Notes under the pieces: generated by a model
Databases searched by the model: none
Told to the model about the DNA's origin: nothing
Seen by the model: the letters and a program-made list of their open reading frames with translations, nothing else
Source: a virus
Reading direction: 5' to 3' (one strand)
DNA: 36,825 nucleotides
IMG/VR virus record: IMGVR_UViG_3300011114_000588
Span: 1 to 36,825 of that record
Shown: piece after piece, positions 613 through 34,562 of the stretch
How positions within the stretch are numbered: position 1 is the first letter of the stretch
How the letters are laid out: each line of letters begins with the position of its first letter
Program-made: the position numbers and the translations under genes

Positions 613-818
613 TCGGTCTTTATCGGTCTTTGGACGGTTTTGGCTAAATCGTCCAATCGGTCTATTTCCGACATTTACCCCTTTAGATCGGTCTTTGACC
701 CGTGTTCGTCGGTCTTTTTCCGACCCTAATCCGACATTGCCCAACGAGGGACCGATCTGACGGGGGGGATACTATATCCCCCCGTCGGTCCCGTCGGTCG
801 GTCTTTTGGCCGGTCTTT
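613..818. repeat. Iteron-like array of TCGGTCTTT 9-mers
   Basis: Exact TCGGTCTTT occurs at 613-621, 623-631, 688-696, 709-717 and 798-806. One-mismatch versions are at 657-665 (TCGGTCTAT) and 810-818 (CCGGTCTTT). Further TCGGTCCC cores occur at 785-792 and, inverted, around 748-755. The first two copies are tandem with a 10-bp period (612-631). All five exact copies share one strand. Direct repeats of this size and density next to a hairpin resemble binding sites for a replication initiator or a DNA-binding regulator. Spacing is irregular, so they are not CRISPR repeats. Confidence 0.7.
748..792. other. Long imperfect hairpin inside the iteron-like array
   Basis: GGGGGGATA (763-771) pairs with TATCCCCCC (775-783) around a 3-nt CTA loop. 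Outside a one-base bulge GAC (759-761) pairs with GTC (784-786), and GGGACC (748-753) pairs with GGTCCC (787-792) with a 5-nt bulge on the left. The result is an 18-bp interrupted stem. There is no upstream plus-strand gene to terminate here. A cruciform at an origin, a leader hairpin of the rightward transcript or a protein site are the main possibilities. Confidence 0.6.
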
Positions 819-3816: not shown

Positions 3817-4136
3817 GCGGCGTAAATAACCCCTTTCGCTATCAATACGAACACGTTGCGGCATCCGTAACCGCTCAGGTGCTAGGCACAACGGGCGCTG
3901 TGGGCGACTATCTGCACCGCATCATCATCACCGTATCGACTGCCGCTACGGCTGCTGTGCAGATTGTTGACGGCACGGGCGCTGGCATCCTGACGCACAC
4001 CATCCTGCCCAACAGCCCCGGCGACGGTATTGGCGTCTATAACGTCGAAATAAACGCCGTGTCGGCTAACGGTGCATGGAAAATCACGACCGGCGCTGGC
4101 TCCGAAGTCATGGCCGTCGGCATCTTCTCGGCCTGA
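3813..4136 (+). CDS. Small beta-rich protein between terminase and portal
   Basis: 107 aa. The ATG at 3813 overlaps the terL stop, with a strong AAGGAGG (3798-3804) 8 nt upstream, so it is probably well expressed. The composition (many T, V, I, G, A; alternating hydrophobic residues such as HRIIITVSTAATAAVQIVDG) indicates a beta-sandwich, without signal peptide or membrane helix. The strong ribosome site and position in the head module suggest a small virion or head-decoration protein, but I do not recognise a named family. The end overlaps the portal start (TGATG). Confidence 0.7.
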   Translation: MSGVNNPFRYQYEHVAASVTAQVLGTTGAVGDYLHRIIITVSTAATAAVQIVDGTGAGILTHTILPNSPGDGIGVYNVEINAVSANGAWKITTGAGSEVMAVGIFSA

Positions 4137-6442
4137 TGACAATGGAACCCGTCTCCTCACCCGTCACCCGCCTTCTGACTTGCGTTCATCAATACGATAA
4201 CGAGTTCAAGAAGTGGGACGCCCGCGTCACCAAGATCATCCGCCGCTATCGCGATGACACACGCGGGTCCACGGGCAACGAGACGGCGCGCTTCAACATC
4301 CTGTGGTCAAACGTGCAAACGCTTGTCCCGGCTGTCTACGCCAAACTGCCCAAGGCGGATGTGTCTCGCCGTTTCGGCGACAACGACCCCGTTGGCCGGG
4401 TTGCGTCCCTGTTGATCGAACGCGCTCTGGACTACGAGATTGAACACTATCCCGACTTCCGCGCCTCTATGCGTAATGCGGTGGAGGACCGTTTTCTTGG
4501 CGGTCGCGGCGTGGCTTGGGTGCGGTACGATCCGCACATCAGGAAGCAGGACGTACCGGAAGATGGCTATCAGATCACCGAAGACGTTGAGAATGAGGGC
4601 GACGAGTACGGTGACATTCATAACCAGACTTCGGGCATGGAAGACCGGCCAGAAGAAATTGAGTATGAGTGCGCCCCAACCGATTACATCCACTGGAAGG
4701 ATTTCGGCCATTCCGTAGCGCGCACATGGGAAGAAGTCACAAAGGTCTGGCGCTGGGTCTATATGTCAGAGGAGGCGCTGAAAGAGCGGTTCGGCGACGA
4801 ACTTGCCAAGAAGGTGCCGCTCGACTCCAGCCCTGAGCAGCTCAACAAATACGCCCAGACGAACAAAACCAACGACAAGGCCAAGGTCTGCGAGCTTTGG
4901 GACAAGGAAAAGGGCCGGGTTTACTGGTTCACCGAATCCTACCCGGAAATGCTCGACGACCGTGATGACCCGCTTGAGCTAGAGGGCTTCTTTCCCTGCG
5001 CCAAGCCGCTATACGCGACCACGACCAGCGACAGCCTTGTGCCGGTTCCTGACTTTGTTTTGTATCAGGACCAAGCCAACGAACTCGACATCCTCACCGA
5101 CCGCATCGACGGTCTGGTCAAGGCCCTGCGAGTGCGCGGTGTCTATGACGCTTCACAGCCCGCCTTGCAGCGCCTGCTGACCGAAGGCGACAACAACACC
5201 CTTATCCCCGTCGATAAGTGGATGGCGTTCTCCGAAAAGGGTGGCCTGAAAGGCTCCATCGACCTTCTGCCCATCGACACGCTCGCTAACGCCCTGATCC
5301 AGTGTTATCAAGCGCAGCAGCAGATCAAGGGCCAGATATACGAAATTACCGGCATTTCCGATATCATTCGCGGCAATACGGCGGCGTCTGAGACGGCCAC
5401 GGCACAGCAAATCAAGGGCCAATATGCGGGCCTGAGACTGCGTTCGATGCAGGAAGCGGTGGCCCTGTTTGCGTCAGAACTGCTTCGTCTGAAGGCCCAG
5501 ATCATCTGCACCAAGTTCCAGCCGCAGACGATCCTTGAATATGCCGCTGCGGCGCAGATGTCTGACGCCGACAAGCAACTGATCCCGCAAGCCCTGCAAC
5601 TACTTCAGGACAGCCCGCTGCGGACGTTCCGCATCGAGGTCGCGTCTGACAGTTTGGTGCAGCTTGACGAGAACCAGAACAAGGCCGACCGCGTTGAGTT
5701 CCTGAACGCCTTCTCAAACTTCATGCGTGAGGCTGTCCCTGCTGGTCAGGCCAGCCCTGAAATGGTGCCGACCCTCATGGACATCATGAAGTTCGGCATT
5801 GGCGGGTTCAAGCAGGCCAAACAGATTGAAGGCACGATTGACGTTGCCCTTCAGGCTCTGAGCGCCAAGGCTCAACAGGCCCAACAGAACCCGCCGCCCA
5901 ATCCTGAAATGATGAAGATGCAGGCAGAGCAGCAAGCCGCTCAGGCCAAGATGCAGGCTGATGTGCAAATGGAGCAGGCCAAGATGCAAGCTGATATGCA
6001 GATTGAGCAGATGAAGGCCCAGCTTGCCCAACAGCTTGAGTCCAGCAAGCAGCAGCACGAAGCCAATCTGAAGATGCAAGAACTGTCCATGCAAGAGCAA
6101 TTCGACCGTTGGAAGGCCGATCTCGACGCGGCGACAAAGATTATGGTCGCCCGCATCGGAGCCAACCCCGGAATTGACGTTGCCATGATGGAAGCCGAAG
6201 ACGCGGCTAAAAACACGGTGATTGAAGCCCTGACTGGCCGCGTTGAGCAAAACGCCAACAATGTCGCGGCCCTGCACAACCATGTGGCTGATATGCATGA
6301 GCAGATGATGCAGACAACGCAGGGGGCCTTGCAGCGGTCAGAGGAACTCGCAAGAATGGCTCTTGCGCCCAAACGCATCGTGCGCGGTCCTGATGGCCGC
6401 GCTGTCGGGGTAGAAGTCGTTCAAGCCGGAACCATGCAATGA
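4136..6442 (+). CDS. Portal protein
   Basis: 768 aa, within the range of large podovirus portals. The N-terminal half has the features of phage portal proteins just downstream of terL: an early helical region (…FKKWDARVTKIIRRYRD…), the NETARFNILWSN segment, and later QIKGQIYEITGISDIIRGNT, a sequence type recurrent in portals. Residues about 590-690 are a Met/Gln-rich coiled coil (repeating KMQAD/EQAKMQ), as in portals with a long helical barrel. It forms the ring through which DNA is packaged and ejected. ATG 4136 overlaps the preceding stop (TGATG) without a clear ribosome site, so it is probably translationally coupled; ATG 4142 is an alternative start. Confidence 0.9.
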   Translation: MTMEPVSSPVTRLLTCVHQYDNEFKKWDARVTKIIRRYRDDTRGSTGNETARFNILWSNVQTLVPAVYAKLPKADVSRRFGDNDPVGRVASLLIERALDYEIEHYPDFRASMRNAVEDRFLGGRGVAWVRYDPHIRKQDVPEDGYQITEDVENEGDEYGDIHNQTSGMEDRPEEIEYECAPTDYIHWKDFGHSVARTWEEVTKVWRWVYMSEEALKERFGDELAKKVPLDSSPEQLNKYAQTNKTNDKAKVCELWDKEKGRVYWFTESYPEMLDDRDDPLELEGFFPCAKPLYATTTSDSLVPVPDFVLYQDQANELDILTDRIDGLVKALRVRGVYDASQPALQRLLTEGDNNTLIPVDKWMAFSEKGGLKGSIDLLPIDTLANALIQCYQAQQQIKGQIYEITGISDIIRGNTAASETATAQQIKGQYAGLRLRSMQEAVALFASELLRLKAQIICTKFQPQTILEYAAAAQMSDADKQLIPQALQLLQDSPLRTFRIEVASDSLVQLDENQNKADRVEFLNAFSNFMREAVPAGQASPEMVPTLMDIMKFGIGGFKQAKQIEGTIDVALQALSAKAQQAQQNPPPNPEMMKMQAEQQAAQAKMQADVQMEQAKMQADMQIEQMKAQLAQQLESSKQQHEANLKMQELSMQEQFDRWKADLDAATKIMVARIGANPGIDVAMMEAEDAAKNTVIEALTGRVEQNANNVAALHNHVADMHEQMMQTTQGALQRSEELARMALAPKRIVRGPDGRAVGVEVVQAGTMQ

Positions 6443-26489: not shown

Positions 26490-26850
26490 CCACCGCTTCC
26501 GGGTCCGCGAACCCAAATAGCGGCAGGAAGAAGAACGGCTGGCCGCGTTCGCGCATCAGGGCCGCGCCTTGGATTTCATTGGCAGCCCCTGCGGCACCCC
26601 ATGCGGCATCCCCTGCGGCATCCCCTGCGGCATCCCATGCGGCATCCCATGCGGCAGCCCGTGCGGCAATCCCTGCGGCATCCCATGCGGCAGCCCGTGC
26701 GGCATCCCATGCGGCAGCCCGTGCGGCAGCCCGTGCGGCAGCCCGTGCGGCAGCCCGTGCGGCATCTGCTGCCCGCCATTGCTCTGGCGTCATCGCCTTG
26801 AGGTGTTGGAGGAACGCCTCGACGATGGGGGTTTCTGGCCCGTATTTCAC
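26464..26850 (-). CDS. Ala-rich repeat protein, copy A
   Basis: 128 aa; GTG 26850 start, no clear ribosome site. The N-terminus [20 protein letters not shown] and the C-terminal block [19 protein letters not shown]…[12 protein letters not shown] are shared with copy B at 27175-27576, which fixes the reading frame. The centre (about 28-88) consists of 4-residue units ([12 protein letters not shown]) that predict one long, highly Ala-rich helix. It is encoded by a 12-bp minisatellite (26581-26772). Such proteins might be structural, antifreeze-like or DNA-mimic, but no function is known. The 3' end runs into the holin-like gene. Confidence 0.7.
26482..26586. repeat. 105-bp direct repeat, copy A (3' part of Ala-rich gene)
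   Basis: Matches 27196-27300 with three mismatches over 105 bp. It covers the 3' end of the Ala-rich gene and starts exactly at the last bases of the holin-like gene (TGCGCTAAC), marking one duplication breakpoint. Confidence 0.85.
26581..26772. repeat. 12-bp minisatellite, 16 units
   Basis: Sixteen consecutive 12-bp units of the form GGCAKCCCVTGC run from 26581 to 26772 (the last is degenerate: GGCATCTGCTGC). They encode AAAR/AAWD-type tetrapeptides on the minus strand. All six frames stay open through the array because the unit holds no stop, so frame calls rely on flanking homology. Copy number could change by slippage. Confidence 0.85.
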
Positions 26851-27178: not shown

Positions 27179-27576
27179 TTGGCGGGTTCCTTCTGTGCGC
27201 TAACCACCGCTTCCGGGTCCGCGAACCCAAACATCGGCAGGAAGAAGAACGGCTGGCCGCGTTCGCGCATCAGAGCCGCGCCTTGGATTTCATTGGCAGC
27301 GTCCCATGCGGTAAACCACATAATATCCCATGTGGCATCCCATGCAGCATCTAGTACGGCACCGCCTACGGCTTCGCGTGTGGCAGCTCCCGCGCCGCCC
27401 CGTGCGGCAATCCCTGCGGCACCCCATGCGGCATCCCGCGCGGCAAGCCCTGCGGCTTCCCAACCCCCTGCGGCATCCCCTGCGGCAGCCCGTGTGGCAT
27501 CCCATTGCTTCGGCGTCATCGCCTTGAGGTGTTGGAGGAACGCCTCGACGATGGGGGTTTCTGGCCCGTATTTCAC
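27175..27576 (-). CDS. Ala-rich repeat protein, copy B (ancestral)
   Basis: 133 aa; GTG 27576 overlaps the stop of the secreted-protein gene (GTGA). The N-terminal ~25 residues and the C-terminal [15 protein letters not shown]…[12 protein letters not shown] are nearly identical to copy A; the centre (about 29-90) is a degenerate, more varied version of the repeat, with W, T, I and M. The conserved ends and diverged or re-expanded centre argue that the ends carry the function and the length of the helical rod is variable. It has the intact upstream gene context, so it is likely the parent of copy A. Confidence 0.7.
   Translation of the reverse strand: MKYGPETPIVEAFLQHLKAMTPKQWDATRAAAGDAAGGWEAAGLAARDAAWGAAGIAARGGAGAATREAVGGAVLDAAWDATWDIMWFTAWDAANEIQGAALMRERGQPFFFLPMFGFADPEAVVSAQKEPAK
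27196..27300. repeat. 105-bp direct repeat, copy B
   Basis: Partner of 26482-26586 (three mismatches). Confidence 0.85.
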
Positions 27577-31899: not shown

Positions 31900-32133
31900 A
31901 TGGCAAACATCAAGGGCCGCTGTGAGCCCGCCTATAGCATCGTTACGTCGTTCGGCGGCGTTACGCAAACGGCAAAAATATGCGGCATAACACTTGGAGC
32001 TGTAAGCCGATGGATGTCAAAGGACGGCGGCGGCGGCGTTATCCCTACAGCGCACTGGAAGGCCCTGCTGATCTATGGCCGCGCGCACGGCATAAAAATT
32101 ACCCTGACCGCTCTTTCTGGAATAGTCCTTTAG
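31900..32133 (+). CDS. Cro/YdaS-like HTH regulator
   Basis: 77 aa. ATG 31900 has AAGGAA 9 nt upstream (GTG 31870 is a less likely upstream start). Residues about 18-40 (FGGVTQTAKICGITLGAVSRWMSK) form a helix-turn-helix of the YdaS/Cro type, and the following GGVIPTAHWKALL region is typical of that group. It should bind the divergent region in front of it and control both the primase-helicase gene downstream and the recombination operon. No CI-type partner with a protease or multimerisation domain was found, so a lysogeny switch is not proven. Confidence 0.75.
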   Translation: MANIKGRCEPAYSIVTSFGGVTQTAKICGITLGAVSRWMSKDGGGGVIPTAHWKALLIYGRAHGIKITLTALSGIVL

Positions 32134-32155: not shown

Positions 32156-34054
32156 ATGAACAATTCAGACTTCCTGCTTGCCGCTTACGGTGAGCTGCAA
32201 AACAATTACGGCTGGACGGCATCCTTTGCCAGTGACCCCAACGACCCCGCAGCCGGGGCTTGGGCCGGTCAACAATGGACCGCAAAGCCCCTGCAGGCGG
32301 CGTTTATAAACTCGCGCGTCGAAAATAACAATTTTTACAGCGTCGGCGTAATGAACACGCCAGATGTGCCCAAGCGGGCCAAGAGCCTGTTCAAGCGCCT
32401 TGCCGTGCTGTTGGCAGACGATGCAGACCCCGGTTCACTGATGGGGCCAACGTCCTACATCCTCGAAACAAGCGCCGGGAATTATCAGATCGGCGTGTTC
32501 CTCGATCCTGACGACCCCGACACCACCAACGGCCCGCTGATCGACATTGTGCTGTCCTGCATGGCCTCGCGCGGCATTATCAATGCCGACGCCAGCGGCA
32601 ACAACCCAGTGCGTTACGGGCGGCTTCCTAACGGCTGCAACACCAAGAAAACGGCCAACGCTTTTGCATCCAAGCTGCATCACTTTGACGGGCAGCTAGT
32701 CTATTCGCTTGAGGATGCAGCCGCGTCGTTTGGCATCGACTTGGCAGACGCACGGGAATGGGCCAAGAGCCCGCCGCTGCAAGAAGTGAAGTTCACCAAT
32801 CCCAAGATGGATGGCGTTGAAGCCTTCAAGCAGCTTATCAACCCCGACCTTGCAGAACGTAGCTACCATGATCCGCTGCTGAAAATCAGCGCGGCGATGG
32901 TGTCGCGCGGCATGGATAAGGACGGCGCGCTGTCCATGATCCGCGCACTGATGCTCGCCATCAAGCCTGACGAGGGGCCGGAATTGTCGCGCTGGGAGGC
33001 CCGCTTTGGGCATGACCTACAGCGCATGGTAAAAGGCGCTGATAAGTTCGCACCAGAGGCGGGGCCAGATGATGAAAGCGTTGTCCTGACCTTGGATGAG
33101 CTGGAGGCTCGCACATTGAATGTTAACTGGCTGGTCAAGGGCCTGATACCCCGCGATTCGATGGGCATGGTGTTCGGCGGCTCTGGCACCTACAAGTCAT
33201 TCATCAGCCTAGACCTTGCGCTGCACGTTGCACACGGTTTGGATTGGACAGGGCGGCGAACCGAAGCTGGGGCGGTCCTGATTGTCGCCGCTGAAGGCGG
33301 GGCCGGGATATTCCGCCGCGTTCAGGCTTGGCACCAGCACCACGGCCTAGAGCGGGCGAAGAATGTTTTTGTCTGCATCACGCCGTTGATCCTGTCCGAA
33401 GAACACAGCATGGAAGTGCTGCGTAACTCGATCTCGAAAATGCCGGTAAGCCCTGCCCTAGTCATCATTGACACGTTGGCCCAGACGTTCGCGGGCGTTG
33501 AGAATGATAGCAGCGATATTTCAGCCTATCTGAGGTCCATCAACAGTGAGTTGCGGGCTGAGTTCAACACCTCTGTAATTATCGTTCACCACTCAGGCCA
33601 CACAGTCTCAGAGCGTCCGCGTGGATCGTCGGCCCTGATCGGCAACCTAGATTATATCCTTGGGGTGTTTCGGCCAGAAGGCGACGAGCGCACGGCTAGG
33701 CTGTCGGTCATCAAACAAAAGGACAGCGACAAGATCGACGACCTTTATTTTGATATGCGGCACATCGTTTTGGGCGTCGATGAGGATGACGAGGAGATTA
33801 GCAGCCTTGTGGCCGAATGTGGCAAAGGGCCTTCAGAGCTGGGCCGCACTAGCAAGTACGATGGCGCAGTCATTCGCGCATTGAGCGACGGGCCTAAGTC
33901 TGAGGATGAATTGCGGAAGATGACGGCTGAATTAAGCAATAACCCCACGACAGCCCGGAAGGGACTGCGTGAGGCTATTAACAAGCTGGAAGCCGCCCGT
34001 CAGATACGATCGCTTGGCGGCTCAGTATGGGCCTTGTCGCCTCACACTATCTAG
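32156..34054 (+). CDS. Primase-helicase (RepB-like primase + AAA_25 ATPase)
   Basis: 632 aa. The N-terminal domain (about 20-175) resembles RepB/archaeo-eukaryotic-type primases: ADDADPG near 87-93, YQIGVFLDPDD (110-120) and RYGRLPNGCN (153-162). A RecA-fold ATPase (about 320-560) has Walker A GGSGTYKS (341-348), Walker B ALVIIDTLA (434-442) and a VHHSGHT motif. The C-terminal ~70 residues (SKYDGAVIRALSDGPKSEDELRKM…) look like a winged helix. It would unwind and prime phage replication. The gene overlaps the convergent GcrA homologue by 8 bp. Confidence 0.85.
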   Translation: MNNSDFLLAAYGELQNNYGWTASFASDPNDPAAGAWAGQQWTAKPLQAAFINSRVENNNFYSVGVMNTPDVPKRAKSLFKRLAVLLADDADPGSLMGPTSYILETSAGNYQIGVFLDPDDPDTTNGPLIDIVLSCMASRGIINADASGNNPVRYGRLPNGCNTKKTANAFASKLHHFDGQLVYSLEDAAASFGIDLADAREWAKSPPLQEVKFTNPKMDGVEAFKQLINPDLAERSYHDPLLKISAAMVSRGMDKDGALSMIRALMLAIKPDEGPELSRWEARFGHDLQRMVKGADKFAPEAGPDDESVVLTLDELEARTLNVNWLVKGLIPRDSMGMVFGGSGTYKSFISLDLALHVAHGLDWTGRRTEAGAVLIVAAEGGAGIFRRVQAWHQHHGLERAKNVFVCITPLILSEEHSMEVLRNSISKMPVSPALVIIDTLAQTFAGVENDSSDISAYLRSINSELRAEFNTSVIIVHHSGHTVSERPRGSSALIGNLDYILGVFRPEGDERTARLSVIKQKDSDKIDDLYFDMRHIVLGVDEDDEEISSLVAECGKGPSELGRTSKYDGAVIRALSDGPKSEDELRKMTAELSNNPTTARKGLREAINKLEAARQIRSLGGSVWALSPHTI

Positions 34055-34562
34055 CGCCAAAATACAAAACCATTCGGTTGAACGACGGACCCTTTTTAGG
34101 GGCATATGAAGTTATCGCTTGATGGTGGCCGCAATAGGATTTGCCTTTCGGGGCCTGAGCGCCGCACATCATAGCCTCGGCCATGTCGCCTAAGCGGTAA
34201 TCCCCCTCGATAAATCGGCACTGGTTTGGCCTTATGTCGGCTAGGGCCAAGGCAACTTCCGAAGTGGGCTTTTCGTAAACAATTGGCTTAGGCGGCAGGA
34301 CGCGACGGGCTTTGATATTCTTCGCCAAGTGCCATACTTTAGGCCGCGCCGTGGGCGCTATGGGCCTGTGTGGGGCATTGATAGAGGCCCCGACCACGCC
34401 AGCGCGGCGAAGCCTACGCAACTTGCCTATCACCGCGTTCCGGCTTCCAATGCCCATGTTTCGGGCTATCTGAGAAGCCGAAAGGCCCGCGTTAAACAGG
34501 TTAATTAGCTTAACAACGCGCTCGTCACTCCAGCCCTCATTCGGAATTGGATTGTTCTTCAC
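34047..34562 (-). CDS. GcrA-family cell-cycle regulator homologue
   Basis: 171 aa; GTG 34562 with GGAG 8 nt upstream. N-terminal WSDERVVKLINLFNAGLSASQIARNMG followed by RNAVIGKLRRL (about 11-51) is the GcrA DNA-binding region. The C-terminal third (NQCRFIEGDYRLGD … MMCGA … YCGHHQ) retains the Cys/His-containing end seen in GcrA. GcrA works with sigma70 at CcrM-methylated GANTC promoters in alphaproteobacteria; a phage copy may redirect host or phage transcription. It is last in the leftward operon, after tiny early genes. The middle basic/Pro linker is longer than usual. Confidence 0.85.
   Translation of the reverse strand: MKNNPIPNEGWSDERVVKLINLFNAGLSASQIARNMGIGSRNAVIGKLRRLRRAGVVGASINAPHRPIAPTARPKVWHLAKNIKARRVLPPKPIVYEKPTSEVALALADIRPNQCRFIEGDYRLGDMAEAMMCGAQAPKGKSYCGHHQAITSYAPKKGPSFNRMVLYFGAR

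Follow-up and report, generated by a model that had tools for sequence, protein, structure and literature searches.

The intergenic region at 613-818 of the window, a 36,825-nt stretch that is an entire virus record, probably represents an iteron-type replication origin, which would be bound by the winged helix of the phage primase-helicase, opened by its helicase and primed by its primase. We assign this reading, which draws on sequence comparison and on analogy with known replicons, a probability of about 0.78. The preliminary description had proposed an iteron-like origin with the primase-helicase as a possible partner, and this part of the interpretation is retained, while the phage-plasmid mode and the skew signal envisaged with it are not.

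Repeat array and hairpin in the intergenic region

Exact matches to the 9-mer TCGGTCTTT were found at five positions of the whole 36,825-nt record (starts 613, 623, 688, 709 and 798), all on the plus strand. The expected number in the whole window is 0.20 (sd 0.43) and five copies were reached in 0 of 100 shuffles; for this 9-mer, chance is thereby excluded. Matches with one mismatch occur inside the array at 657 and 810, and the other five are dispersed across the genome. The copies at 613 and 623 form a 10-bp tandem, and the remaining start-to-start spacings are 34, 31, 21, 89 and 12 bp. When a profile was built from the seven copies, the genome's top seven matches all fell within the array, which is partly so by construction. 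The elements of the region are as follows.

613-621, plus strand: iteron 1, TCGGTCTTT, exact match
623-631, plus strand: iteron 2, TCGGTCTTT, exact match, 10 bp after iteron 1
657-665, plus strand: iteron 3, TCGGTCTAT, one mismatch
688-696, plus strand: iteron 4, TCGGTCTTT, exact match
709-717, plus strand: iteron 5, TCGGTCTTT, exact match, 21 bp after iteron 4
745-800, unstranded: hairpin within the array, inverted repeat 745-767/778-800, with equivalents in relatives
798-806, plus strand: iteron 6, TCGGTCTTT, exact match
810-818, plus strand: iteron 7, CCGGTCTTT, one mismatch
828-863, unstranded: AT-rich stretch adjoining the cluster, putative unwinding element

The inner arms of the hairpin (763-771/775-783) are perfect and nested in the longer inverted repeat, and its DNA folding energy (z = -2.95) beats 199 of 200 shuffles. 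The hexamer TCGGTC has a minus-strand copy at 750 opposite plus-strand copies at 785 and 794, with the hairpin between them. The 30-mers at 828-831 contain 27% GC, which places them in the lowest 0.12% among the genome's 30-mers. The five exact same-strand copies, the variants, the tandem, the density beyond chance and the hairpin of the preliminary description are all borne out, and the genome-wide count that it proposed as a check assigned five of five copies to the cluster and none elsewhere. Its further claim, that such density is absent from the coding regions inspected, needs amending: elsewhere in the genome, stretches that look coding are locally rich in repeats as well, GGCGGC at ~8.4-8.6 kb and TGCGGCATCC at ~26.5 kb, so density by itself is not unique to 613-818. 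The suggested GC-skew check gave no turning point at the cluster. Rfam yielded no match, and no tRNA was found.

The array is intergenic, flanked by leftward genes (first start about 393) and by rightward genes. The same intergenic region carries a 13-bp perfect tandem, CATGACAGGGGCG, at 950-976. Further along lies a box at ~1050-1110, consisting of a G-run, a loop and a C-run followed by CACAAATTTTTTGCCC, the sequence of which is kept in relatives whose iterons are not; it is a candidate packaging, late promoter or terminator site.

Genome and replication genes

The two ends of the record have an exact 127-bp repeat in common, so the record is probably a complete circular assembly and the closed genome 36,698 bp long. 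Terminase, portal, major head, tail, amidase and endolysin proteins are encoded in the window, together with a replication-recombination block composed of a Cas4-like exonuclease, a DUF669/SSB-like protein, Sak4, the Cro-like HTH protein and the primase-helicase, which is 632 aa long. A phage GcrA-family gene points to an alphaproteobacterial host. The genes relevant to the array are listed below.

31903-32133, plus strand: small HTH protein, Cro-like, encoded upstream of the helicase (P22_Cro 5.1e-6, under the Pfam cut-off)
32156-34054, plus strand: primase-helicase, proposed initiator (RepB_primase-like N-terminus, AAA_25/RepA-fold helicase, C-terminal winged helix)
33854-34036, plus strand: C-terminal winged helix, residues 567-627, proposed iteron-binding domain (AlphaFold model, PDB folds, covariation)
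34047-34562: phage-encoded GcrA-family cell-cycle regulator (Pfam 2.3e-23)

Elsewhere in the genome, a PAPS-reductase-like gene at 1287-2125 has its frame broken at an eight-G run (1383-1390), where an assembly error, a pseudogene and slippage cannot be told apart. Tandem repeats of 12/36 bp, of the TGCGGCATCCCA type, occur in two nearby spots, 26581-26764 and 27391-27504.

The primase-helicase is a single fused protein. RSF1010 RepA is the best match of its helicase domain (hmmsearch 1g8y, E 4.5e-10) and stands at the top of the VIA list with Z 24 over 228 residues, a list that is occupied by the helicase domain and gives little information on the other domains. AAA_25 is present in 39 of 39 homologues and PF16793 RepB_primase in 22 of 39 (best 5e-8), with the N-terminus of the window protein scoring E 0.027, under the Pfam cut-off; this N-terminus had zero matches among PDB sequences. 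Neither Toprim nor the SF3 family was matched by the window protein or the 39 homologues. In the AlphaFold model, the winged helix comprises helices 567-577, 583-593 and 597-613 (helix 3) and a two-stranded wing; most of the PDB folds that it matches are winged-helix proteins, with none reaching E 0.001 for a domain this short. No full-length homologue was found in named phages or plasmids, where no record spans 80% of the query.

Direct repeats at a spacing of about 11 bp are reminiscent of some partition centromeres, and the array might be read as the ParR- or ParB-type site of a phage-plasmid. Neither an integrase (PF00589) nor a ParA-type ATPase (PF13614) was matched in the window, which also counts against the phage-plasmid replication suggested in the preliminary description, and the protein that is linked to the repeats and covaries with them is the primase-helicase. 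We regard a centromere as extremely improbable.

Relatives keep the layout and change the motif

Searches with terL and with the helicase gave several hundred loci among the matches listed (more than 280 relatives reported). Motifs of relatives were read from the clusters by eye and statistics were obtained from automatic word counts; a simple EM motif finder was dropped as too permissive, and word counts and reading were used instead. Several terL relatives carry a repeat cluster at the equivalent spot, about 1.0-2.7 kb upstream of terL, with another motif: ATCGGTGCA in L007, ATGGGACG/ATGGGTCGCT in L026 and L030, ATGTCCGG in L017 and L018, AGCGTGACA in L064 and L072, and AAGGCTTACA in L076. 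Among helicase relatives the motifs include AGTGAAGCA (L202), AGTGAGCGTA (L204), AAACGCGCC (L216), TTTGTCCGG (L217, L245, L249, L256), TTTGTCGGG (L218, L236, L285), ATGACGG (L228) and TGTCCCGG (L089, L091), with further ones besides. Nearly all clusters contain a hairpin, typically of the GGGGTACgtaGTACCCC or CCCTATAGGG type, with inverted copies alongside. For DNA folding, the L245 segment was left out of account, because its coordinates were slightly off and did not include the main hairpin of that locus.

The exact 9-mer pair was found in further viral contigs, mostly as isolated pairs, so the exact motif is not what is conserved. A search for the exact motif among terL relatives returned zero clusters, a null that misleads because the layout, not the motif, is kept. 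As read from the clusters, the trait shared across relatives is this layout of short direct repeats and a hairpin with inverted copies, the motif differing in most lineages. Absence of the cluster from close relatives, which the preliminary description had named as speaking against its reading, did not occur, though the motif changes. Very dense arrays of another kind, unlike iterons, lie 3.3-3.4 kb downstream of the helicase in L344 (CCGCCGCATAAG) and L216 (CCCAGGCGGC).

Clusters lie 3' of the helicase gene

Of the non-coding repeat clusters, counted as those outside long open frames, 32 fell 3' of the helicase gene (460 kb of sequence) and 1 fell 5' of it (484 kb); by locus, 25 of 53 with a long flank had a cluster on the 3' side versus 1 of 54 on the 5' side. 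These counts include near-identical or overlapping records and are not fully independent. Roughly one in two loci whose 3' flank was long lacked a cluster under the criteria used, among them L198 and L199, which have degenerate or few repeats round a hairpin. A distant subgroup, L309-L322, has a cluster that starts at the stop codon of the helicase gene (positions about -140 to 0, counted from that codon). In the window it is 3.3 kb away from the gene, so linkage alone is weak evidence here. Taken with the tracking of the winged helix by the motif (below), the 3' location and the stop-codon clusters uphold the earlier suggestion of the primase-helicase as partner.

The terminase genes follow 1.4-1.9 kb downstream of the array, with a similar terS/terL position in the terL relatives. 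A packaging (pac/cos) or late-control site would fit this location, and the separate box at ~1050-1110 is conserved in sequence. That box is nevertheless a better candidate for packaging than the repeats. Moreover, the cluster is absent in five helicase-less terL relatives on long contigs (L029, L041, L060, L078, L082), and the distant subgroup has it at the helicase gene, which makes a packaging or late-control role for the repeats very improbable.

The motif covaries with the winged helix

Mantel tests were used to relate the similarity of motifs to that of proteins, on 19 non-redundant loci (set 1) and on 30 loci (set 2) that overlap set 1 and were enlarged after the first test. The motif correlated with the winged helix (r = 0.38, n = 19), and did so too when the remainder of the helicase (r = 0.35, p = 0.0016, n = 19) or the core (partial Mantel r = 0.31, p = 0.0002, n = 30) was controlled for; these correlations are moderate, and Mantel tests correct only partly for shared ancestry. 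Given the winged helix, the motif was not significantly correlated with the rest of the helicase (r = -0.13, n = 19) or with the core (n = 30). In nearest-neighbour prediction on additional loci, winged helix and core were not separated, because the neighbours they picked were identical; either one predicted TGTCCCGG for L315 and L317, whose actual motif is TGTCCGG.

These data also bear on the possibility of an operator array, in which the Cro-like HTH protein (31903-32133) or GcrA (34047-34562) would bind the repeats and control divergent promoters. The cluster does sit between leftward and rightward genes, a promoter-like match on the minus strand at 425-452 is no better than chance, and the HTH protein is conserved among these phages. 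However, the motif does not follow the HTH protein given the winged helix (r = 0.06, p = 0.29, n = 19), and in L236 and L245 identical HTH proteins accompany different iterons. GcrA homologues occur in some relatives only, and the stop-codon clusters are not located at a divergent promoter. An operator array thus seems unlikely, and the Cro-like protein more probably regulates the replication genes than binds the iterons. The pair L202 and L204 counts against the HTH protein and is also the hard case for the winged helix: the HTH proteins are 94% and the winged helices 90% identical, yet the motifs differ. Some of the winged-helix differences are located where helix 3 begins, and if the winged helix sets the motif, a few recognition residues must matter.

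Natural recombinants

Returning to the origin reading, L236 and L245 differ in their winged helices (34-40% identity) as well as in their iterons, with helicase cores 84% identical. Their DNA is similar up to +1730 of the gene, loses similarity across the winged-helix segment and regains it at 87%. Between L285, a sibling of L236, and L245, similarity drops out across the winged helix (1636-1796) and again across the iterons and hairpin (5759-6088), after which the two are 94% identical over 695 bp; L218, L236 and L285 have winged-helix type and motif in common. A second case is provided by L311 and L315, with cores about 98% identical, winged helices 55% identical and motifs TGTCCCGG versus TGTCCGG; L315 and L317, whose winged helices are closer (71%), have the same motif. 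As judged from these comparisons, natural recombinants switch the winged-helix segment and the repeats together.

L285 and L245 differ in further stretches, at 2151-2632, 3837-4045, 4186-4912 and 5350-5713, so exchange is not confined to the winged-helix and iteron segments, and differing stretches between the gene and the cluster could encode another binder. Between these otherwise closely related phages, the helicase domain (about residues 284-520) has also diverged more than the N-terminus, which suggests additional recombination within the gene.

Proposed mechanism and significance

We propose that the C-terminal winged helix of the primase-helicase binds the TCGGTCTTT-type iterons, as the covariation suggests, and that binding would cause the helicase to assemble as a ring where the hairpin and the adjoining AT-rich stretch lie. 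The helicase would then open the DNA, with melting of the AT-rich stretch, and the RepB-type N-terminal domain may prime, perhaps at the hairpin, like RSF1010 RepB' at ssi sites. Binding, loading, melting and priming are modelled on RSF1010, SaPI Rep/Cch2, pRN1 and P4 alpha. Iterons and winged helix would co-evolve and be swapped by recombination; such joint exchange would let relatives keep the layout while the recognition sequence changes, and would give every lineage its own origin specificity.

More tentatively, there may be a widespread phage group with a single fused RepB-RepA-winged-helix initiator, in which recognition domain and iterons are exchanged together as an incompatibility-like code, which would keep relatives in the same infected cell from starting replication at one another's origins. 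In uncultured phages, origins are seldom located, and here layout and covariation predict origin and initiator domain together; with many natural winged-helix/iteron pairs, a recognition code could be read. The data also raise the question of why origin specificity diverges fast between phages that otherwise share replication genes.

Comparison with known systems

No description of a RepB-RepA-winged-helix fusion combined with iterons was found in the literature covered, outside which most subscription papers fell. The phage system would function much as those of SaPI, P4 and pRN1 do, without belonging to any of them: its helicase is RepA-fold, not SF3, and no Toprim domain was found. The SaPI Rep and Cch2 helicases are not known to have the RecA/RepA fold, and the helicase superfamily of P4 alpha likewise differs from the RepA fold. 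In SaPI Rep and SCCmec Cch2, the C-terminal domain of the helicase recognises the origin repeats, and the SaPI origin lies directly downstream of the helicase gene (PMC7581432). The phage system would share both the recognition by the helicase C-terminus and the downstream origin; it differs in helicase fold, in the fusion with a RepB-type primase-like domain and in its occurrence in full phages. P4 alpha is one protein that binds origin repeats via a winged helix, unwinds and primes (PMC4234260), as proposed for the phage protein, but it has a Toprim primase and a different helicase fold. In pRN1, a small regulator gene is followed by the primase-helicase ORF904 with a C-terminal winged helix and then by a stem-loop, which diverges in sequence within conserved flanks and has been proposed to be recognised by the C-terminal part, with similar phages such as BIP-1 (PMC4234260). 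The phage shares this gene order of regulator, primase-helicase and downstream stem-loop; in pRN1 the helicase is of the SF3 type and iterons are missing, whereas the phage has a RepA-fold helicase and clear iterons.

RSF1010 (IncQ), with the hexameric helicase RepA, RepB', RepC and oriV, resembles the phage in its RepA-fold helicase and iterons and probably in a RepB-type primase-like domain, and the phage hairpin is possibly analogous to the ssi sites (ssiA/ssiB). The RSF1010 iteron unit is 20 bp, whereas the phage units are of the 9-mer type with a highly variable motif. A separate DNA-binding part recognises the origin repeats of RSF1010 (PMC4538821); the phage has one fused protein in place of three separate ones, with RepC replaced by the winged helix. 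In its parts the phage system is thus closest to RSF1010, but fused and with different iterons.
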